From: Puniceicoccaceae bacterium Marseille-Q1082
GTDB taxonomy: Bacteria; Verrucomicrobiota; Verrucomicrobiia; Opitutales; Intestinicryptomonadaceae
Direction: 5' to 3'
Length of the DNA: 64,000 nucleotides
Assembly: GCA_904424815.1 (NCBI GenBank)
Contig: CAJGBI010000001.1
Span: forward strand, 62,001-126,000
The notes under the pieces were generated by a model that searched no databases, was not told where the DNA came from, and worked only from the letters and a program-made list of their open reading frames with translations. Made by a program: the position numbers and the translations under genes. Positions 13,435 to 47,798 of this stretch are shown here, piece after piece (position 1 is the first letter of the stretch; the number at the start of each line of letters is the position of its first letter).

Positions 13435-16400
13435 ATGAACAGCCGAATATCCGTTTTCGCCCTCGCAGTTTTGCTCTCGCCGCTCGCATGCGCGGCGTCG
13501 GAGCCGTTGTTTTATATGCCGCTCGACGGTTCCGCCGACGTCGTGGGTTCGGACGGCGGAAACCTCAAAGGCGGCGTGGTGCACGGCAAGTCGGGCTATG
13601 TCGCGGGCGTGTCGGGCAAGGCGTTGGAAGTCAAGCGCCACGCCTACGACCAGGTGACTGCGGTAAATTTCGCGGGACTGCCCGAGGCTGACTGGAACGA
13701 GGGCACGGTGTCGTTTTGGTTCAAGCCGTTTTGGAAGGAGACCGACCCCGAGAGCATTCCGGTGTTTACCGCGAACGGCAAAAACTTCCGTTTCTACTTC
13801 ATTAAGGGCAAGGGAGGGTATATGGAGCTCAGCGTCTGCCCTCCGAGGCAGCTCCAGATTTTGTGCAAAAACGTCCTCAAACAGGGCGAATGGGCGCATG
13901 TTGCGTTTTCGTGGAGCACTAAAACGGGCGAGGCCGCACTGTATATAAACGGCAGGCTGGCGGGAAAGAAGGCCGACCCGTCGCGCGTCGAAAAACTCGA
14001 GAGGCAGTCGCCGTCAATCTGGCTCGGAAACGCGGGGTCGGACCGCTTCAAGGCGAAGGTCGGCAACGGGTTGTACGACGAAATCAGGATATTCGACAGG
14101 GTTCTTCCGGCGGCGGAGATCTTCGCGCTTTCGACTTCGGGTTCCGACTCCGCGATGTCGGCGCTCAACCCTGACATCATTCCGTTTTCCGGCGGCTCCG
14201 CCGAATTTGTGACAAGCGGCAAGACGGCGAAGTACGCCGGCCCGCGCAAGCTGTTGGAGCTCGATTCGGGCTCGTCGAAGCTTTCGCTCGTAGCCATGGG
14301 GGCGTCGGGCAAGGTGTCGTTCGTATACGACGGCGGCGGCAAAAAGGCGGCGGCGGAGTCCGCCTGCGTATTGAATCTCGCGCAGCGGCACAAAATTTCC
14401 GTGAGGCGGAGCGGGGAATCTCTCGAATTTTATATAGACGACTCCTTCCAGGGCTCGATACCAAATGCCGCGTTCGACAAAATTTCGTCGGCGAAAATCG
14501 CTGACGGCTTTTCGGCGTATCCCAATTCCGGCTTCCCGTCGGCGGAAGACGCCGCGAAGCTCGCCGACGCAAAGACGGACGCGCTCGAAGACGGCCTGTG
14601 GTCGCTTGAAGACGCGGCGAGGCGCTCGGACGGCGCGAGGAGCGGCGTGTGCCTCAACGGCTATTGGAGGGTCTGGCTGGCAAACGAATATTCCTATGCT
14701 CCGGAGGGCGCAAGGTGCGGGTACATGCGGGTGCCCGGCAGCTTCAGGTCTCCGCTCTACAACCTGTGGCTTCCGGAGAACGGCAAGCTCGGCAGGCCAT
14801 CGCAGTACTGGAACGGCAAGAGCCTGATAGAAAACCGCGCGGGCTGGTACCAGCGCGTTTTTGAAGTCCCCGACGACTTGAAGGGCGAAAGGGTTTACCT
14901 CAACTTTGAAAATCTGAACGGCGACTACGGCAGGGTGTATTTGAACGGAAAGCTCATAGATTCGTTCAGGCAGGATTTCAAATGCTTTACGGTCGTTCCC
15001 AACGCGCGCAGGATAGACGTCACCGACATTCTCTCTCCGGACGGGAAAAACCTGCTCACGGTTTTCATAGACCGCGCCTACGTCGGCCTTTGGCGCGGGG
15101 TTCCGAGCATAGGCGACCACGCGGAAATCGCAATCGGCGACGTTTGGCTCGAGAAGTCCCCGTCGCGCGTCTTTTTGTCGTCGGCGCTCGCGCTGCCGTC
15201 CTATCGGGAGGGGCGGGTGGCAATGCTCGCGCGGGTTCAAAACCCGTCGGGGCTGAAAGGCGCGGCGAAAGTCGAATTTTCCTTTGAGAGAAAAGACGGC
15301 AAGCCCAAGACTTTTTCCGAAGAGTTCGACCTCACGGGCGCGCGCGAACAGGCCGTGAAGTTCTCGGGGAAGTGGAAAAATCCCGTCCTGTGGGACGTTG
15401 AAAACCCCAATCTTTATGAGATGAAGGTTTCCCTGTATGCGGATTCAAAGCTCGCAGATTCGTATCCAGCAAAGGATTTCGGGTTCCGCGAGGCCTGGGT
15501 TGAGGGTTCCGAATTCCGCATGAACGGCAAAAAGATGCGCATGCGCATGTGGACTTCCCCCGCGCTCGGCAGGCTCCGCCAATACTTCGGGCACCCCAAC
15601 TCCATGGGCCAGTACGTCGCGCACATAAAGGGCATGAACTACGACACCGTGCGCTTCGACCCGTTCGGGAAGACTTCGCAGGTCGCGTGGCCCGAGTACC
15701 TGCGCGAGTGCGACCGAGCGGGGCTCTACAACCTCTTCCAGATGCCCCCGTACGAGGACGAGGAAATGGAGGTGTATTCCAGGGAGGTTGAGAGGTTTTT
15801 GGAGCACTACGGCAACCACCCGTCGATACTCATGTGGTATACGGATTTCAACACGTGCTCCTATCCGTGGAACCAGGATCCCGCGAAGATTACCGACTAC
15901 GACTACGACCCGCCGTCTAAGCGCGAGCCCCGCCGCCGCGCGCAGACCGCCGAAAGGCTTATGCGCTCGCTCGACTGGTCGCGCGAGCTCTTCCAGCACG
16001 CGGGCGGTGCGTCCGGAAAAATTTTCACCTCGATGAACTACCAGTCGTACGGCACGCCGTTGCAGGAGCAGGAGGACTGGCCGCGCCAGTGGTCCGAGAA
16101 GCGCGGCAGGCCGCTTATGGTGGTGGAGTCCGCGTTCCCGTATCCCGCGCAGATAAGGCATTTCGACAATCCGTCCGTCGGCAGCCTCGGCGCGGAGCAC
16201 GCCGCCAGATATTTCGGCGACGGGGTGTTTTCCGCCGAGACGAATCCCGTGCCGCATTCCGACGAGTGGCAGTACTCCCCCTACGCCAATCCGAACGAGA
16301 ACATAAGGAGGCTTTCCGAGATGCTCTACGGGCGCGTCGTCAAGGCTTGGAGGGGCTACGACATGTCGGCTCTCGGAGATTTCCCCGGGGGCCGCGACAT

Positions 16401-18279
16401 GTGCCACACGGCGGTCACCTACGACAACCACAATGTCGTGTTCGACCAAGTCGGCGGCGGAGGAGCAAAATCCCCCGGGCTGCGCCCCGACAATCCGACG
16501 GGCTGGAGCGAGACCCAGCGGCACTTGCTCTCCGACTACACGCTCAGGGCCAATCTTCACGACGCTGTAAGGGACGCTTTCGAGCCGCTGCTGATTTTTA
16601 TAGGCGGCGAGCCCGCAAACTTCACCTCCAAAGACCACGCCTTTTACGCGGGAGAAAAATTCTCCAAGAGCGTCGTTGTGGTAAACGACAGAACCTCGCC
16701 CCAGACGGTGTCGTTCAAATGGGAACTGCGGCTCGACGGCGAGCCGCTCCCCGCGGCGTCCGGAGAATTTGAAAAGACAGTGGAGCCCGGAGGCCTGGAA
16801 AAATTCCCGATTGCGCTTGCCGCCCCAGGCGTCGCCAAGCGCACTGACGCGGTTTTGTCGCTCGAAGCCTTCAAGGACGGAGTATTGATAAAGGAGGATT
16901 CCTTCGCTCTCCAATTCTTCCCGAAGAGGGTTCAGCCCGACTTCCGCGACGCCTCCGTAGCCCTTTACGACCCGAAGGGCAACACCGCCGGACTTCTCGA
17001 AAAGGCGGGAATGCCGTTCAGAAAAATCAAGTCTTTCGGGGAGCTCGCGGATGCGCGGCTTCTGATAGTCGGCCAGAACGCGCTCGGCAAAAAGCCGTCG
17101 GAGCTGCTCGCGAAAGTCGAGGAGGAAAAGCTCATAGACAGGGGGCTGAAAGTTCTCGTGTTCGAGCAGAAGGCGTCCGCGAACGTCGGCAACTTTGTGT
17201 TCGAGTCGCCGAGCTACCGCAACGCCTTCATACGCTCGCCGAAAAGCCCCTATGTGGCGGGCCTCAAAGACGCCGACCTTGCAAATTGGCGCGGCTCCTC
17301 CGACACCGTCGAGGAGTATGTCGTTTCGGACGAAAATTCCCCCCACTACCCGCGCTCCAAGTGGAAGTGCGGCAACGGCGGGATAGTCAGCGGCAACGTA
17401 ATCCGCAAGCCCTCCTACGGCAATTTTACCGCCGTGGTGGATTGCGGGTTCAACCTCATGCACTCGTCGCTTCTCGAAATGCGCCGCGGCCACGGAATCG
17501 TGCTCTTCTGCCAGCTCGACGTCACTTCGCGCTACGGCAAAGACCCCGCGGCAACCCTGCTTGCGGACAACATATTAAAGGAAATGTCAAACCGCTACCT
17601 CCCCGTAGGGCCCCAGCGCGCGGCGTATGCCGGCGGAGATGCGGGCGCGAAAATTCTCGACAGAATGGGAATGGAATACTCGAGGGTCGGCGAGCGCGAC
17701 GCCTGGAATCTGAGCTCGGCGCAGGTCATAGTCCTCGGCGCGGACGCCCCGAAAAAGCTCGCCGACGCGGTTCGTAAAATCGCGTCTTCCCGAAATTCCG
17801 TCGCCGTGGTCGCCCTCCCGGGGGCGGATATCGGCATTCTCGGCTCGGGCGCGAAAATCGGCAAAAAGAATATGTTCCGCGCCTCCGTTCCCAAGAATGA
17901 TCCGCTCTTCGACGGAATCGCCGACGCCGACCTGTATTTCAGAACCGCGCGCGAACTGCCCGTAATCGAAAACGCGCCGGACTGGATGAGGGCGACCTCC
18001 CCCGCGCTCTTCGGCGCCGTGGACAAGACGACGGGCGCCAACATATGCTTTACGGTCGCCCCGTCCGACGTGTCCGGAGTCTGGAACGAAGAGAAGGTCG
18101 CGCGCGTCTGGAACGGCATATTCGACAACATGAACGTCGGCCTCGGCAAAGACCTCAAGCTATTTTCGTCAGAAAAATACAGGCACAACAAGCTCGGTAA
18201 AAAGGGAGCGAAAGACGAATGGTCGCCGTATGTGGACAACCTCGATTTCTATGACGGGGACGCATTCCACAACTGGTAG
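13435..18279 (+). CDS. giant secreted glycoside hydrolase family 2-like protein with LamG domain
   Basis: A 1614-residue exported protein (signal ISVFALAVLLSPLACA). Residues about 20-235 form a LamG/concanavalin-like domain (EPLFYMPLDG, GTVSFWFKPFW, YDEIRIFDRVLPAAEI). Then come a GH2 sugar-binding domain (WYQRVFEVPDDLKGERVYLN, GRVYLNGKLIDS, DILSPDGKNLLTVFI), an Ig-like domain, and a TIM barrel (GMNYDTVRFDPFG). The usual acid/base region NHPSI-LW-GNE reads NHPSILMWYTDFN, so the catalytic Glu appears replaced by Asn. The nucleophile region RGRPLMVVESAFPYP keeps its Glu. A long C-terminal part has Rossmann-like and glutamine-amidotransferase-like stretches. Substrate unknown. A structured repeat begins in its stop codon. 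Confidence 0.75.
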   Translation: MNSRISVFALAVLLSPLACAASEPLFYMPLDGSADVVGSDGGNLKGGVVHGKSGYVAGVSGKALEVKRHAYDQVTAVNFAGLPEADWNEGTVSFWFKPFWKETDPESIPVFTANGKNFRFYFIKGKGGYMELSVCPPRQLQILCKNVLKQGEWAHVAFSWSTKTGEAALYINGRLAGKKADPSRVEKLERQSPSIWLGNAGSDRFKAKVGNGLYDEIRIFDRVLPAAEIFALSTSGSDSAMSALNPDIIPFSGGSAEFVTSGKTAKYAGPRKLLELDSGSSKLSLVAMGASGKVSFVYDGGGKKAAAESACVLNLAQRHKISVRRSGESLEFYIDDSFQGSIPNAAFDKISSAKIADGFSAYPNSGFPSAEDAAKLADAKTDALEDGLWSLEDAARRSDGARSGVCLNGYWRVWLANEYSYAPEGARCGYMRVPGSFRSPLYNLWLPENGKLGRPSQYWNGKSLIENRAGWYQRVFEVPDDLKGERVYLNFENLNGDYGRVYLNGKLIDSFRQDFKCFTVVPNARRIDVTDILSPDGKNLLTVFIDRAYVGLWRGVPSIGDHAEIAIGDVWLEKSPSRVFLSSALALPSYREGRVAMLARVQNPSGLKGAAKVEFSFERKDGKPKTFSEEFDLTGAREQAVKFSGKWKNPVLWDVENPNLYEMKVSLYADSKLADSYPAKDFGFREAWVEGSEFRMNGKKMRMRMWTSPALGRLRQYFGHPNSMGQYVAHIKGMNYDTVRFDPFGKTSQVAWPEYLRECDRAGLYNLFQMPPYEDEEMEVYSREVERFLEHYGNHPSILMWYTDFNTCSYPWNQDPAKITDYDYDPPSKREPRRRAQTAERLMRSLDWSRELFQHAGGASGKIFTSMNYQSYGTPLQEQEDWPRQWSEKRGRPLMVVESAFPYPAQIRHFDNPSVGSLGAEHAARYFGDGVFSAETNPVPHSDEWQYSPYANPNENIRRLSEMLYGRVVKAWRGYDMSALGDFPGGRDMCHTAVTYDNHNVVFDQVGGGGAKSPGLRPDNPTGWSETQRHLLSDYTLRANLHDAVRDAFEPLLIFIGGEPANFTSKDHAFYAGEKFSKSVVVVNDRTSPQTVSFKWELRLDGEPLPAASGEFEKTVEPGGLEKFPIALAAPGVAKRTDAVLSLEAFKDGVLIKEDSFALQFFPKRVQPDFRDASVALYDPKGNTAGLLEKAGMPFRKIKSFGELADARLLIVGQNALGKKPSELLAKVEEEKLIDRGLKVLVFEQKASANVGNFVFESPSYRNAFIRSPKSPYVAGLKDADLANWRGSSDTVEEYVVSDENSPHYPRSKWKCGNGGIVSGNVIRKPSYGNFTAVVDCGFNLMHSSLLEMRRGHGIVLFCQLDVTSRYGKDPAATLLADNILKEMSNRYLPVGPQRAAYAGGDAGAKILDRMGMEYSRVGERDAWNLSSAQVIVLGADAPKKLADAVRKIASSRNSVAVVALPGADIGILGSGAKIGKKNMFRASVPKNDPLFDGIADADLYFRTARELPVIENAPDWMRATSPALFGAVDKTTGANICFTVAPSDVSGVWNEEKVARVWNGIFDNMNVGLGKDLKLFSSEKYRHNKLGKKGAKDEWSPYVDNLDFYDGDAFHNW

Positions 18280-18410
18280 ATTTGGCGAATGCTTTTGGGC
18301 TAAAAACGAGTTGCTGCGCGATAACAAAGACTCTCGCGTATGTCTAATACGCTTCGACCCTTTGTTTCGCTTGCGCCCCGTTTTTAGCTCCAAAAGCATT
18401 GCGCCAAATC
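18279..18410 (+). repeat. long hairpin element, copy A
   Basis: A 132-nt imperfect palindrome. The left arm GATTTGGCGAATGCTTTTGG (18279-18298) pairs with 18390-18410 (CCAAAAGCATTGCGCCAAAT then C), one base bulged. Inside, GCTAAAAACG pairs with CGTTTTTAGC and AACAAAG with CTTTGTT, capped by GCGTAT-GTCTA-ATACGC. The left arm starts on the last base of the GH2-like gene's TAG. Copy B at 46960-47090 has nearly the same arms but a different interior that still pairs. A conserved terminator follows 39 nt later. Confidence 0.85.
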
Positions 18411-18449
18411 GGGAACCCGCGGTTTTTCAGAACAAACTCTGTGTGTTAT

Positions 18450-18479
18450 AACGAACCTCTAATGGGAGGTTCGTTTTTT
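18450..18479 (+). terminator. conserved-type terminator after element A
   Basis: AACGAACCTC-TAATGG-GAGGTTCGTT followed by T6 in total. The same stem and flank occur at 47130-47159 and, on the minus strand, at 50444-50475 after rpmB. Confidence 0.9.
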
Positions 18480-18799
18480 GCCTGTTGCGGAGGTGTTTTA
18501 ATGGCAGACGCAAGGCGCCGATAAAATAAATGCGCGGCTCTATTTCATTGCGGCGCTTTGATTGAAAGAAAAAAGGGCGTTTGGGCGGCGCCCATCCGGC
18601 TCGAGAAAAAGCGGAGAATATTTTCCCGCGCACGGAGGGAAACGGGCGGCAGGCAATCCGCCAAGTTTCCGTCTTACAAATAGAAAAAAGTTTGGGGCGC
18701 GCGCCCGAATCGGATTTTCAGATCGGCGCCGCGCTCTCCGGAAGCGGCAAAAAAATTTGCTTGCGTTCAAAAGCGGGCGGATTTAACTACTCAAGGCAT
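18480..18799. other. intergenic region before the giant pilin-like gene
   Basis: About 320 bp with no gene that can be supported. The frame of the next gene stays open upstream to 18581 but that stretch has no ribosome-binding site or signal peptide and reads as non-coding. An AAGG site 5-8 nt before 18800 marks the real start. Confidence 0.5.
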
Positions 18800-30846: not shown

Positions 30847-31611
30847 ATGAAACAGTACCTATACCTATCCCTTGTGCCCGAGGCCCTCATCGCCTCGAAT
30901 CTCCCACCCGAAGAGTTCGGCAACTACTACGCGACCGGCGCGTTCCGCCGCAACTGCGATCCCGCGATTTTCTTCGAGCTCGACCCGAATTTTGAATCCG
31001 ACTATCTGCCAATGGACAAATTTGCCGAACTTTGCTCGCCCCATGCAGACGGCAGCGCGCACAAGTCGGTGAATCTGTCCGTTTACCGCGTGTTGGAACA
31101 CGTCCCGATGGCGGCGTTCAAAAATCTTTACCTCGTCACGAGCGACGGCAAGGCGCTCGAACTTTCCCAGCGGCCTTTCGAGCCCGACCCGTCGCGCAAG
31201 ATATACCTCTACCAGGATTTGGCTCCGTGCCGCCCGCGGGTGGCGAGCATACTCAACCCCGCCGAATACGCCAGGCGCCTTACATCTTCCGAGCGGCTTG
31301 TTCATTTTGAAAAAATCGCGTTTTTCGACATGAAGCTCGGCGATCTCGAGCGCGACCCCGTAAACGGCGACCTCGGCGACCTCCCGTACACCAACCGCCA
31401 CCACTTGCGCGACTGTCTTGACGCCGTGCGGACAAAGGGCGGCAAAAACAATAAAATTGTGGCGCGCTCAATGGGCGAAATTCTCTACCGCACAGTCGGC
31501 AGCGGCTTTTACGTCGGCGCGGGCGGCGAACTTCTCTTCTACCCGATGCCGTCGAAAGACGAGCTCGAAACCGATCATTTTCAGTGGTTCAAATCTGCCC
31601 AGTTTACCTAA
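30847..31611 (+). CDS. conserved-looking protein of unknown function (254 residues)
   Basis: A cytoplasmic-looking protein starting MKQYLYLSLVPEALIASNLP, with AAGGA 6-10 nt before the ATG. It has no signal peptide or membrane segment. It contains AIFFELDPNFESDYLPMDKF, FDMKLGDLERDPVNGDLGDL and PYTNRHHLRDCLDAVRTKGG. I do not recognise the family. Aromatic and acidic residues spread evenly along its length suggest a folded soluble protein. It stands alone between a terminator and a cluster of structured repeats that begins 9 nt after its stop. Confidence 0.6.
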   Translation: MKQYLYLSLVPEALIASNLPPEEFGNYYATGAFRRNCDPAIFFELDPNFESDYLPMDKFAELCSPHADGSAHKSVNLSVYRVLEHVPMAAFKNLYLVTSDGKALELSQRPFEPDPSRKIYLYQDLAPCRPRVASILNPAEYARRLTSSERLVHFEKIAFFDMKLGDLERDPVNGDLGDLPYTNRHHLRDCLDAVRTKGGKNNKIVARSMGEILYRTVGSGFYVGAGGELLFYPMPSKDELETDHFQWFKSAQFT

Positions 31612-31620
31612 TCGGCTTGG

Positions 31621-31731
31621 GCGCGTGAAACTGCCGCTGGCGCCCCGTTTTGAATGGGTGCGCCATTGGTCGCGTATTCCAAGTATGCTTCCACAGGCGC
31701 AAACGCCCGCCTGAACGGCAGTTTGACGCGC
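31621..31731 (+). repeat. long hairpin element, copy C
   Basis: The arms GCGCGTGAAACTGCCG (31621-31636) and CGGCAGTTTGACGCGC (31716-31731) pair with one mismatch. The inner region has partly paired GGGTGCGCC/GGCGC and an apical TGGTCGCGTATTCCAAGTAT then GCTTCCA. This apex closely matches copy B (TGGTCACGTACTAATTGTAC then GCTCCCA), although the stems differ. It begins 9 nt after the stop of the 254-residue gene. Confidence 0.75.
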
Positions 31732-31759
31732 ATTATGATTATTTGGAGAATAACTGCAT

Positions 31760-31822
31760 TAGGAAATCCGCCAATGCCGTTCGCGTATGTCGAATACGCC
31801 GCGCGCCCTTGGCGGATTCCTA
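31760..31822 (+). repeat. hairpin element, copy D
   Basis: TAGGAAATCCGCCAA pairs with TTGGCGGATTCCTA, one A bulged. The apex is GCGTAT-GTCGA-ATACGC, nearly identical to copy A. Outer CTGCATT/AATGTAG pairing ties it to the conserved 124-nt body that follows at 31827. Confidence 0.75.
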
Positions 31823-31826
31823 TATT

Positions 31827-31950
31827 CGCCTGAATGTAGCCTAACCCCGAAAGCAGGTGGCAATTGGGAGGGGATTGGCTATTTCAGCCTGCGGAAATGA
31901 AAAAACGATATTGCCGGCAAGGCGGGATAGGCGCATTGGCTTTGCCGATC
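31827..31950 (+). repeat. 124-nt dispersed repeat, copy E1
   Basis: Begins CGCCTGAATGTAGCCTAACC and includes GGGAGGGGATTGGCTATTTC and ATTGCCGGCAAGGCGGGATA. It aligns without gaps to 63450-63573, most strongly from the GGGAGGGG stretch onward. Both copies follow a variable hairpin and lie upstream of a plus-strand gene. It could be a structured RNA or a mobile non-coding element. Confidence 0.75.
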
Positions 31951-44510: not shown

Positions 44511-44843
44511 TGCGCTCCCGTTAAATTGCGCGGCCGGGCGCGTTGCAACAAAAAAAGGGAGCCGCCGGCGCAAAACGCCCCGCGCTTCCCTCCGCCGCGG
44601 CCTTGTTCGGCAGCTCGACGCTTTTTTTGTCCATGATGTTTGCAGTGCCGTTTCGGCGGCTGATTCCGCCATATAATAACGATACCCCGCTCATGGAATG
44701 GCTTCCGGGAAAAGCCGGCGGGCGCGGAAAATTTTCGAGAGGAAATCCGCGCGTCTGCGGCGGCGCGACGGGGATCCGCCGGTTGGCGGAAGCGAAAAAC
44801 CGGCTTTACAGCGCTCTTGTGCGGCTATATTGTGTGTCTCATT
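44511..44843. other. intergenic region
   Basis: 333 bp between the divergent glyoxalase and DUF6259 genes. Open frames on both strands have no start signals or domains. Nothing else is recognised. Confidence 0.45.
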
Positions 44844-46961
44844 ATGCATAGATACGCGACATACGCAATTCTGGCTCTCGCGCTTTCGGCGTTCGGGCAG
44901 GCTTGGGGAGGGGAAAAATACGCCCTCGAAAACAGTTCGGTAAAATTCGAGCTCGACGAAAACGGGAGGCTTTCCTCGCTGAAAAACAAAGTTTCCGGCG
45001 CGGAATACGCCGGCGGCGGAGATCTTTGGCGCGCCATATATTCGCGCGGAGATTCGCTCGAAAACGAGTGGCTGCCATCCGACGCCCCGCTCAAAATATC
45101 GAAACCTTCCCCCGATAAAATCCTGCTCGAATACGGCGGGCAATTCCCCGTCAAAATCGAATGTTCCCTCGACGGCGGGCAGGTTTTGCTGAAACCGGAG
45201 GTAAAAAACGCCTCAAAAGACCTCGTTTTGCGCGAGTTCCAGTTCCCGTTGGTAAAAAATATTCCCGATTCCGAAAAATCCAGAGTCATTTGGTCGCGGT
45301 CGGGCGGAGCCTACGCCGCGCGCGGAGGGCAGAGCCTGCGCAAGTGGGTTGAGGGCGCCAGAACCGGCTATATGGCGGAAGACTACAACGCCGTCGAGCG
45401 CTCGGAGGTCTACCCGGGGGTGCTTGCGCTCAACTGCTTCTTCATCGAGCGCCCGAAGGGGAAGGGCGCGCTCTATATGGCAAGCTATGACGATTCCTTC
45501 CAAAAGACCCTTCACTTGTTCCGCGGAAGGGCGGTGGACGGCAAAAAGGAGCGCGCAATCGACGCGGGATTTGTGAAATATCCGTTTCTCAAACCCGGGG
45601 AGTCCGAGAAATATCCCGCCTATGCGCTCGCGCCCGTGGGCAGGTGGGAGGACGGCGCAAAATTTTACGCAAAATGGGCGGACGCATGGCGCAAGCCGTT
45701 CAAACCCGCAGATTCGCTCTCGTCGTCCAACGGCTGGCAGAGGCTCATTGCGCGCCACCAGTACGGAAAGCAGTTTTTCAAATATTCCGACTTCCCGAAG
45801 ATTCTCAAAGACGGGCTTGCGGCGGATATCGACACCCTCTTTTTGTTCGGCTGGTTCAAGGAGGGGCACGACGCGGGATATCCGCACTACTCTCCCGAAG
45901 CGGAGCAGGGCGGCGACGAGGCTCTCAAAAAGGCGATCGCCGAATTTAAAAAAGGCGGCGGGAAAGTGATAATATATTACAACGGCCAGCTCATAGACGC
46001 CGCCACGGATTTTTACAAGAAGCTCGGGCGCAGGATAAGCGTCAAGGTCCCGGGCGGGAGCGAACACATAGAGCGCTACAAGTTCGGCGGGGCGGGCACA
46101 GCGCTGCGGACTTTCGGCAACAAGACTTTCGTCACAGCCTGCCCGTCGTCCGCCGAGTGGCTCGAAGTCCTCAAAAACCTCGCCGACCGCGCGCTCGGAA
46201 TGGGCGCCGACGGCGTGTTCTTCGACCAGCTCGGTTTTATGAGCCAGGTCTGCTGGGACGAGTCGCACGGGCACGAAGTTCCTTTCATGGAGGTGATGGG
46301 CGCCAAGCGCAAAATGCTCGAAAAGCTCCGCGAACACATAAAGGCCAAAAACCCCGACGCTACTTTCGGAATAGAATGGCTGACGGACTGCACGTCCGAC
46401 TATGCGGATTACGTGCACAATGTCGGCGTCTACACTGGGCTTTCGTTCAAGGACGATTGCGGCGTGCCGCGCACGGATTTTGTCCCGCTCTTCCAGTACA
46501 TATTCCCCGAAACCCGCACGACCGACAGGGACATCCGCGACGACACCGACGTCAAGCGCAGGGTGAACCTCGCCGTCCTCCGCGGTTGGCGGACGGACGC
46601 CGAAATATACCGCTGCCGCGCCACCCTCGCCGAGGCGCCGAACTACCAGGCGTATTTAAAGGAGGTCGGCGCCTTGCGCGACAAATACCGCGGGCTTATT
46701 CTCAACGGCTCTTTCCGCGGAACCGATTTTGCCGAGTGCTCGAATCCCCGCGTGGACTATTCCGTGTTTACGGCGGGCGACAAGCTCGCGGTGGCGGTCT
46801 CGCAGTCGTCGGCGGACTCTATGAAAACGGGATTCAGAGTCCCCGGATTCAAATTCGCCGAGAGCGGGGAAGTTGGCGGCTGCAAAGTCTCGGGCGGCGG
46901 AGACTCGGCCGAGGTAATCTTGCAAAAAGACGCAATAGCCGTGTTGATATTCCAAAAATGA
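44844..46961 (+). CDS. secreted DUF6259 glycosidase-like protein
   Basis: A 705-residue exported protein (RYATYAILALALSAFGQA). An N-terminal beta-sandwich (YALENSSVKFELDENGRLSS then LKNK) is followed by a TIM barrel: GLAADIDTLFLFGWFKEGHD, GGKVIIYYNGQLID, and GMGADGVFFDQLG with a candidate catalytic Asp. FGIEWLTDCTSDYADYVHN and a C-terminal beta domain follow. This organisation fits DUF6259, related to the clan of alpha-galactosidase-like hydrolases. Activity is not established. No ribosome-binding site is visible before the ATG. A structured repeat (copy B) begins within its TGA. Confidence 0.75.
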   Translation: MHRYATYAILALALSAFGQAWGGEKYALENSSVKFELDENGRLSSLKNKVSGAEYAGGGDLWRAIYSRGDSLENEWLPSDAPLKISKPSPDKILLEYGGQFPVKIECSLDGGQVLLKPEVKNASKDLVLREFQFPLVKNIPDSEKSRVIWSRSGGAYAARGGQSLRKWVEGARTGYMAEDYNAVERSEVYPGVLALNCFFIERPKGKGALYMASYDDSFQKTLHLFRGRAVDGKKERAIDAGFVKYPFLKPGESEKYPAYALAPVGRWEDGAKFYAKWADAWRKPFKPADSLSSSNGWQRLIARHQYGKQFFKYSDFPKILKDGLAADIDTLFLFGWFKEGHDAGYPHYSPEAEQGGDEALKKAIAEFKKGGGKVIIYYNGQLIDAATDFYKKLGRRISVKVPGGSEHIERYKFGGAGTALRTFGNKTFVTACPSSAEWLEVLKNLADRALGMGADGVFFDQLGFMSQVCWDESHGHEVPFMEVMGAKRKMLEKLREHIKAKNPDATFGIEWLTDCTSDYADYVHNVGVYTGLSFKDDCGVPRTDFVPLFQYIFPETRTTDRDIRDDTDVKRRVNLAVLRGWRTDAEIYRCRATLAEAPNYQAYLKEVGALRDKYRGLILNGSFRGTDFAECSNPRVDYSVFTAGDKLAVAVSQSSADSMKTGFRVPGFKFAESGEVGGCKVSGGGDSAEVILQKDAIAVLIFQK

Positions 46962-47090
46962 TTTGGCGAATGCTTTTGGCGAATAGCTCCGTTTCGGGGA
47001 AAGCCGCCACTGGTCACGTACTAATTGTACGCTCCCACCGGCGGCTTTCCCCGAATACTCGCTCTTCATCCAAAAGCATTGCGCCAAATC
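46960..47090 (+). repeat. long hairpin element, copy B
   Basis: The left arm GATTTGGCGAATGCTTTTGG (46960-46979) is identical to copy A, and the right arm 47070-47090 is identical too. The interior is different: GGGGAAAGCCGCC pairs with GGCGGCTTTCCCC, capped by CACGTAC-TAATT-GTACGC. The arm begins on the GA of the DUF6259 stop codon TGA. A conserved terminator follows 39 nt after the right arm. Confidence 0.85.
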
Positions 47091-47129
47091 GGGGAACTGG
47101 GGTTTAGGGGAACGAACTCCGGAAGTATT

Positions 47130-47159
47130 AACGAACCTCTCATGGGAGGTTCGTTTTTT
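47130..47159 (+). terminator. conserved-type terminator after element B
   Basis: AACGAACCTC-TCATGG-GAGGTTCGTT then T-run, identical in stem to 18450-18479 and preceded by GAACTCCGGAAGTATT, shared with the rpmB terminator region. Confidence 0.92.
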
Positions 47160-47209
47160 GTTTGGGGGATTGAGGGAAGGGGATAGAAGTATTGGCGGAG
47201 CCAATCTTC

Positions 47210-47312
47210 GTAAGGGCGCAGCCCTTCAATGGCTGGCGCACCTTGCGCCCGTAAGGGGCGCCAGCCCCTTCAATGGAAGCGGCACTGCCGCCCCCTTCAA
47301 TGGAAGCGACCC
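47210..47312. repeat. cluster of CCCTTCAATGG palindromic repeats
   Basis: The units at 47210-47232 and 47250-47276 each form CGTAAGGG(G)CG...AGCCCCTTCAATGG palindromes. A further partial unit (CCCCCTTCAATGGAAGCG) follows near 47291-47308. The full unit matches 582-605 on the opposite strand. Confidence 0.6.
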
Positions 47313-47354
47313 TGCCGCCCGCCCCCGCCTGGTTGCGCCGGAGCGCGCCAATGC

Positions 47355-47798
47355 CTAATCCATGCCGAGGAAGACGAATTGTTTGTTGAATTTTAGTTCC
47401 TGCTTTGAAGCGAGTTCTAATTTGTATCCGTAGCGTTTTCTTTCGATTTGCACTACGGGGGAGGAATTGAAGTTGTCCCTTATGTAGCCGAGAATCTGCT
47501 CGGGAATTATGGCGTTGGGCACGGACGACGTTTTCGCCGACACCTCCTTCCACGTTCCGTCGGAGGAGAAGTCTATTTCGGTTCCGTCGGCGAACACTAT
47601 GTCGTAGCCTTCGGTGACTGCGCCAAAGAAGTTCGTGTCCTCTTTGACCACCGCCACTTTCTTGTCTTTGAAATTCGCCTTGGCGAACTGTTGGATGGGC
47701 TGCGGAAGGGCGGAGAAATCTATGATTCTGTCTGAAGCCGAAGCCGTGGATGCCGAAAGGGCTAAAATCGCCGAGAGCGTTGCCAATAATTTTTTCAT
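47355..47798 (-). CDS. secreted PepSY-like protein
   Basis: A 147-residue protein with the signal MKKLLATLSAILALSASTAS. Two PepSY-like units follow: ALPQPIQQFAKANFKDKKVA then YDIVFADGTEIDFSSDGTWK, and IIPEQILGYIRDNFNSSPVV then YGYKLELASKQELKFNKQF. This is the periplasmic PepSY-like family common in Bacteroidota and Verrucomicrobiota, thought to be small inhibitory or binding modules. The longer open frame upstream of 47798 is not supported by a start signal. Stand-alone gene. Confidence 0.8.
   Translation of the reverse strand: MKKLLATLSAILALSASTASASDRIIDFSALPQPIQQFAKANFKDKKVAVVKEDTNFFGAVTEGYDIVFADGTEIDFSSDGTWKEVSAKTSSVPNAIIPEQILGYIRDNFNSSPVVQIERKRYGYKLELASKQELKFNKQFVFLGMD

Follow-up and report, generated by a model that had tools for sequence, protein, structure and literature searches.

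Palindromic elements at gene ends in Verrucomicrobiota: a family that may be mobile and act as bottom-strand DNA

Hairpin elements behind genes of the window

The window analyzed here is a 64,000-nucleotide (nt) stretch of the genome of Puniceicoccaceae bacterium Marseille-Q1082 (Verrucomicrobiota; contig CAJGBI010000001.1, positions 62,001 to 126,000). At two places in it, a long hairpin abuts the stop codon of a gene. Element A follows a GH2-type gene whose product (1614 amino acids) has the domains GH2 and Laminin_G_3, and element B follows a gene for a 714-residue DUF6259 protein (Table 1). A sequence-only reading of the window had described identical 20-nt left arms that start inside the stop codon and identical 21-nt right arms, and direct reading at A and B confirmed both (left arm GATTTGGCGAATGCTTTTGG, right arm CCAAAAGCATTGCGCCAAATC). 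The nearly identical terminators that it had placed 171 nt (A) and 170 nt (B) from the left end were also found. Its remaining structural claim, that the differing interiors each fold into a long stem, held as well: A and B belong to different interior families, two of at least five in the home genome (by eye), and each folds into one long hairpin (A, -68.5 kcal/mol, z = -9.6; B, -79.7 kcal/mol, z = -12.6; 0 of 200 shuffles as good).

The terminator scan gave one site per region, which is not above shuffled sequences (means 1.1 and 0.6). The terminators of A and B are credible because they recur among the copies described below. The similarity of element A to other copies stops at about position 18479. 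The window also holds a member that the sequence-only reading had overlooked, element C. As modelled, it starts 5 nt past the stop TAA (31609-31611) of the open reading frame (ORF) at 30847-31611, and it is followed by a second, inner-only hairpin, an arrangement that recurs at other copies.

Table 1 Coordinates of the elements and associated features in the window.
Feature	Positions	Strand	Remarks
TAG that ends the GH2-type gene (13435-18279)	18277-18279	+	left arm starts at its G
Element A, long hairpin, interior family 1	18279-18410	+	arms 18279-18298 and 18390-18410; apex CGCGTATGTCTAATACGC
Element A, intrinsic terminator	18450-18479	+	stem 18450-18475 followed by a T run
Element C, second arm family (GGCGCGTGAAA...TTTGACGCGC)	31617-31735	+	model match 20.6 bits, E = 0.0044
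Inner-only second hairpin behind element C	31754-31828	+	model positions 28-102; 35.6 bits, E = 9e-7
TGA that ends the DUF6259 gene (44817-46961)	46959-46961	+	spans the left-arm boundary
Element B, long hairpin, interior family 2	46960-47090	+	arms 46960-46979 and 47070-47090; apex CACGTACTAATTGTACGC
Element B, intrinsic terminator	47130-47159	+	stem 47130-47155 followed by a T run
Small-hairpin modules (ATTGGCGGAGCCAAT and others), tail of element B	47180-47310	+	by eye; modules shared with tails of further copies; right limit approximate

We rejected membership in a known Rfam family. No match in the window exceeded its gathering score. In six loci searched at E up to 1, the sole model to appear was MIR1858, which hit the two strands of one hairpin far below its gathering score (E = 0.047 and 0.3), and seven further loci matched only a tRNA.

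Copies in the home genome and beyond

An arm search of the kind proposed by the sequence-only reading uncovered many more copies. The home genome (G000; 2,696,975 bases, three contigs) contains 31 exact left arms and 46 with up to three mismatches in a pattern scan, counted after removal of L072 and L080, which lie in other genomes; the reversed-pattern control gave none. BLAST of element A against this genome returned 85 matches, including the reverse strand. Many of them are tandem partial units (about 170 nt, the right hairpin half and terminator) behind a full copy. The sequence-only reading would have fallen back on a simple duplication of a terminator region had there been no further copies and no compensatory change. 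The near identity of the A and B terminators would suit such a duplication. However, the 46 copies rule it out, matches in other genera and compensatory changes in the stems speak against it too, and we consider it practically excluded.

In a public genome collection, the exact left arm occurred in one contig, from an uncultured Verrucomicrobiota bacterium. Viral contigs contained no exact left arm, and searches of element A against plasmid records and of element B against phage records found no match. Model R1 matched at least five of the 14 genomes of the genus, G000 included. The second arm family (GGCGCGTGAAA...TTTGACGCGCC) is present in G000 and G012, the arm pair GGCTTGTGAAA...TTTGACAAGCC in G012, and further R1 copies in G004, G001 and a stray contig in G009. 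Model R2 matched at least 16 of 273 genomes and at least 7 of 88 genera of the order; the counts for both models are lower bounds, with at most 150 (R1) or 12 (R2) scored candidates per genome. Matches of R2 outside the family are weak (E from 2e-9 to 9e-4), and some, such as those in G018, may be other hairpins. G003, assigned to the genus (g1) and listed as 95% complete, gave no match in any genus search naming it, and mostly no candidates; it may be misassigned.

Placement at gene ends

An ORF of at least 100 codons ends between -11 and +24 of the arm at 41 of the 46 home-genome copies, versus 7.7% of random window positions. With a threshold of 250 codons, the count is 37 of 46 versus 2.1% expected. 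The copies share one orientation relative to the host gene (for L023, L032 and L050, orientation is known from the arm only). Among the 42 copies with an ORF of at least 100 codons, the stop lies at -1 (TGA) in 22, at +24 in eight, at -3 in five, at +4 in three, and at -2, -4, +22 and -17 in one each. The +22 copy, L012, was counted by its longest ORF; its true frame is presumably that of FabF, with TGA at -1. The second arm family sits a few bases off the stop, unlike the first.

Genes that stop at +24 mostly have the tail DLANAFGE. All three genes that stop at +4 (at L020, L076 and L087) meet an arm with GATTTGACG, which creates that TGA and is absent from the other 43 arms, a coincidence of 1 in 15,180 if the two were unrelated. 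Orthologues confirm the +4 frame for L087 (FabG), and the open frame only does so for L020 and L076. In the commonest interior families, a gene in frame 1 would meet its next stop after 106-361 nt, in two others after 22 or 43 nt. The elements supply a stop in whichever frame the gene enters. We rejected stop recoding (UGA plus hairpin, as in SECIS-like systems), as there is a stop in all three element frames and the proteins end like their orthologues.

In other genera, an ORF of at least 150 codons ends between -11 and +24 of the left foot at 11 of 20 loci chosen from the R2 matches (G025, 6/7; G208, 4/6; G203, 1/1; G176, 0/2; G028, 0/3; G044, 0/1). Inspection of both feet at 14 further loci placed six at an ORF end (L218, L220, L222, L223, L229 and L233). 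Four copies adjoin tRNA genes, at most 2 nt from the 3' end for Met (L238), Val (L221) and Ser (L124) and about 30 nt from it for Arg (L159). At L120 (G004:C3:108187-108313), an apparent PEP-CTERM coding sequence has its end on the left arm, which would make the hairpin foot protein-coding.

Host genes and element-free orthologues

The host genes are ordinary or core genes, gdh, hisG, hisF, asd, hemB and coaD among them. Ten host C-terminal pieces match NCBIfam models to within four positions of the profile end: glutamate dehydrogenase, HisG, aspartate-semialdehyde dehydrogenase, CoaD, transhydrogenase beta, porphobilinogen synthase, HisF, O-acetylhomoserine sulfhydrylase (metZ-like), FabG and class II aldolase. 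With 260 residues supplied per protein, six of the ten pass the curated cut-off and four do not. Because these proteins run almost to the ends of their profiles, the genes are whole. Three further hosts we take to be NifJ, GspF and FabF.

The sequence-only reading had also called for a comparison with orthologues that lack the element, and congeners provide these for asd (11), hisF (10), nifJ (12), gdh (5), hisG (6), pntB (6), hemB (5), coaD (6), fabG (5) and the metZ-like gene (2). Filled and empty sites are thereby compared between species, not strains. Judged by these sequences, the element has replaced the stop in the home genome and sometimes the last codons too. The asd product ends in VQIAELL or longer (VQIAELI..., VQIAELLAS...) in the 11 congener copies, and in G000 VQIAE is followed by DLANDFGE. 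HisF ends in PARL (four) or longer (six) in the 10 congener copies, two of which have PTR for PAR; in G000, PAR is followed by DLANAFGE. NifJ ends in KYKYLAERK or a near variant (LANR, LADRK, LASRA, LAERA) in 11 of 12 element-free copies, the tail at L177 being longer, and in both G000 and G009:C157 LAER is followed by HLTNKAGE.

Contig G009:C157 (L118, L165) has 84% DNA identity to G000 over 562 bases, its NifJ end is 98% identical, and G009 has a second nifJ on C85. This contig is probably mis-binned and from a close relative of G000.

The native last residue is kept before the element in gdh, hisG and pntB, about two codons are lost in fabG and about 4-8 in coaD. The ends of hemB vary within the genus, and the metZ-like comparison uses two homologues of 67-68% identity. 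Hairpins stand at the same gspF stop in G000 and G012 with diverged sequences, which means that some sites either are old or received an element on two occasions.

Hairpin structure and compensatory change

The elements are long imperfect palindromes of about 130 nt. The covariation check suggested by the sequence-only reading revealed compensatory change: in an alignment of 32 hairpins (copies that have a right arm, excluding L021 and those with three mismatches), 21 of 45 consensus pairs are altered on both sides. In a mixed set of 21 sequences, 40 of 45 pairs are compensatory and 90.9% of cells are paired, versus 60.2% when shuffled and at most 49.0% when slid; because this alignment was made to fit the model, its pairing figures are flattered. 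The shape is kept while the sequence is swapped. Turnover is found in the arms and stem middles, and 49 of 65 hairpins have the exact apex CGTAY...RTACG. By eye, an internal loop, GCTCCGTT/ATACTCGC, recurs, as does a one-base bulge in arms of the GATTTGG type. G-U pairs are few (30 of 730 paired cells).

A terminator-like site lies within 110 nt behind 22 of the 35 home-genome copies that have a right arm. This site, the 46 dispersed copies and the element-free orthologues bear out the suggestion of a mobile palindrome that carries its own terminator. Behind home-genome copies, the 20 distinct terminators found with a substitution-tolerant pattern have 12 G.T and 2 A.C mismatches at pairs 1-10, with 11 G.T and 2 A.C at the loop-closing pair. 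Unlike the hairpin stems, they favor the sense strand.

Several copies carry further repeats. At G000 C2:71586-72298, C2:61311-62189, C1:1666018-1666852 and others (L010, L013 and L014), the right half and terminator are repeated two to four extra times in tandem, with units that start near the apex and junctions that share GATAAC (by eye). The right arm of L047, L058 and L086 is split by a 140-nt insert (CCAAAA TGGATTCGC...CGTTTT CATTGCGCC). Longer insert variants occur in downstream right-arm copies, as at L017; the insert is a second repeat nested within the first. A mosaic of short palindromes (ATTGGCGAAGCCAAT, AAGGGGCGCCAGCCCCTT, GCGGCACTGCCGC) stands behind many G000 copies and in the tail of element B; element A has none. 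At L246 (G025:C25:7337-7465), the palindrome runs beyond its usual foot into the host gene, whose last 12 bases with the stop (TTGACGCGATAA) appear again in inverted form on the far side, as if copied by template switching.

Strand polarity of the fold

With RNA parameters, the strand antisense to the host gene is the more stable one in 61 of the 65 distinct hairpins; DNA parameters give 62 of 65. The 65 exclude L155, two of L156, L159, L223, L233, L236, L241, L249-L253 and weak matches without a host gene; the host-oriented L159, L223, L233 and L236, first omitted, have the more stable antisense strand in four of four cases. All 29 hairpins of the GATTTGG set follow this pattern, and the antisense strand gains 11.1 kcal/mol on average. 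Among 23 representatives under 80% identity, antisense is the better folder in 19, and their sense-strand mismatches number A.C 60, C.T 74 and C.C 29 versus G.T 34, A.G 9 and G.G 13.

The mismatch excess sits outside the consensus-paired columns, at fixed unpaired places inherited family-wide. Counted as distinct events within stems, A.C and G.T number 16 and 22 (alignment A3) and 8 and 4 (alignment A1), or 26 G.T versus 24 A.C when summed, and stem turnover favors neither strand. The same polarity would be expected if stable hairpins were selected against in the transcript. We compared GC skew at sampled home-genome loci as a guide to replication direction, and it had no clear pattern.

Weighing the explanations

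The reading we favor, with somewhat less than even confidence, is that A and B belong to a family of mobile palindromes of Verrucomicrobiota that is old, continues to spread and acts as bottom-strand DNA. The bottom strand would be exposed as single-stranded DNA and then fold. A putative recombinase or transposase would recognize the apex, internal loop and bulges and copy the element to new gene ends. Copies would persist once the host gene comes to rely on the stop that the element provides and on its terminator, if it has one, and effects on the transcript would be secondary. The placement at gene ends may be caused by targeting or by survival of copies that have become indispensable.

Several results weigh against this reading. 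Five of the 46 home-genome copies (L023, L032 at -17, L050, L071 and L078) have no such ORF end, and none of the four chosen loci in G028 and G044 is at a gene end. The gspF copy and element C have reversed polarity (RNA parameters), as L118 and one GGCGCG copy have slightly. Consensus-paired columns hold similar numbers of A.C and G.T cells (35 and 30 in A3; 17 and 16 in A1), and since the mismatches occupy inherited fixed places, the polarity is one conserved feature rather than many independent events. The search for a mobilizing enzyme covered three families. Y1_Tnp (PF01797) was found in none of the 14 genus genomes (controls 5/14 positive; G003 gave no candidates), RVT_1 not in the one genome searched, the home genome, and IntI (TIGR02249) in none of the 14 above the cut-off, with other tyrosine recombinases below it and 0/14 controls passing either. 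We rejected a retroelement origin given the lack of RVT_1 in the home genome. The copies compared demonstrate neither excision nor a target duplication and do not fix the exact 3' boundary, and a mobile palindrome as such does not explain the gene-end precision.

The sequence-only reading had offered, as its other option, a structured RNA of the 3' untranslated region, in which a sense-transcript hairpin abutting the last codon blocks 3' exonucleases or stalls terminating ribosomes. Compensatory change keeps the shape, and the single orientation to the host gene, the stop in or beside the left arm and the terminator directly behind 22 of 35 copies suit such an RNA; there is precedent in the repetitive extragenic palindromes (REPs) within 15 nt of Escherichia coli stops, in the available text of PMC12306157. 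However, the fixed mismatches favor the opposite strand, relatives are placed likewise at tRNA ends, and selection on a sense RNA should favor G.T over A.C. The stems show no such excess, unlike the terminators behind the copies (G.T 12, A.C 2), which argues against it. Polarity and stem turnover do not fit this RNA well, and we regard it as unlikely. The earlier interpretation as a whole is thus partly supported. The opposite product, an antisense RNA from the other strand, would suit the polarity of the fold. On both strands, the regions 18250-18700 and 46930-47360 proved free of sigma-70-like promoters, the sole terminator found in each of them lies on the sense strand, and the stems show no G.T bias for either strand; this makes antisense RNA very improbable.

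Two further explanations do without a selected hairpin product or without targeting, and both are rather unlikely in our estimate, to the same degree. Compensatory change could come from DNA mechanics, if template switching rewrites one palindrome arm from the other with no functional selection. The balance of A.C and G.T in the stems, the few G-U pairs and the inverted host-gene end at L246 are consistent with it, whereas the conserved apex, internal loop and fixed mismatches, as well as the gene-end placement, would go unexplained. Survivorship would instead account for the placement: elements would insert at random, copies within genes would be lost, copies that provide a stop would be locked in and other intergenic copies would decay. 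Genes do use the element's stop, the hosts are core genes and some insertions cost codons. However, this process predicts copies tens of bases past stops, and only one of 42 (L032) starts more than one base after the stop, although members of the second arm family do lie a few bases off.

Comparison with known systems

Integron attC sites lie directly behind a stop codon and carry the boxes R'' (RYYYAAC) and R' (GTTRRRY) at their ends. Like VCR-type attC, the present elements are imperfect palindromes behind a stop, with a variable interior, fixed unpaired bases and a preferred bottom strand. They differ from it in being dispersed behind core genes, in their conserved apex and in having their own terminator in part of the copies. 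The bottom strand folds better in both, here through shared fixed mismatches rather than stem positions. Neither box was present within 16 nt of the ends of any of the 65 hairpins on either strand. Identity with attC was rejected, as there are no boxes and no IntI above the cut-off (the controls also had none, and clusters without IntI are possible). attC recombines via its bottom strand, with extrahelical bases, in the available text of PMC2727003. By analogy with attC, and unrelated to it, a putative recombinase might tag gene ends by placing a hairpin, as folded bottom-strand DNA, behind ordinary mRNA and tRNA genes, which we consider doubtful. If such a tagging system were real, it would be a living example of a recombination hairpin joining a gene, the first step toward a mobile gene cassette. 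The family is a natural experiment on DNA-level marks of gene ends and on the way in which recombination hairpins come to lie behind genes.

Mobile palindromes are common, and the present family shares their broad features, with dispersed near-identical copies and filled and empty orthologous sites (between species); it lacks the excess of G-U over A-C in stems that would be expected of a structured sense RNA. In an open-licence library, where most subscription papers are missing, we did not find described the combination of near-base precision at gene ends, a role as host stop and fixed polarity. The enterobacterial YPAL/RU-2 and ERIC/RU-1 are mobile palindromes of similar length (127-168 bp; available text of PMC2759123 and PMC2229807). 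Where an ERIC copy became joined to the 3' end of a gene, the normal stop was lost (PMC2759123), so ERIC too can replace a stop, and YPAL targets span or adjoin dyad symmetry (PMC2229807). As described, both are mainly intergenic, whereas 41 of the 46 copies here are at a gene end in one orientation.

REPs and their mosaics (BIMEs), which are associated with the transposase RAYT, are likewise palindromes near stop codons that form tandem mosaics (available text of PMC3733652 and PMC12306157), and ribosomes can stall at REPs that lie within 15 nt of a stop (PMC12306157, citing Liang 2015). REPs are 20-40 bp long and tagged GTAG or CGTC, whereas the present elements have about 130 nt. Within 8 nt of either end, such a tag or its complement occurs in 6 of 65 hairpins, and it lies near the left arm in 2 of 46 GATTTGG copies. 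A REP/RAYT or IS200 origin was rejected, as no Y1 transposase was found in the 14 genus genomes.

The RPEs of Rickettsia insert inside genes. They resemble the present elements as palindromic repeats with an open frame (105-146 bp; available text of PMC2229807), and differ in that the elements described here sit at the gene end and bring the stop.

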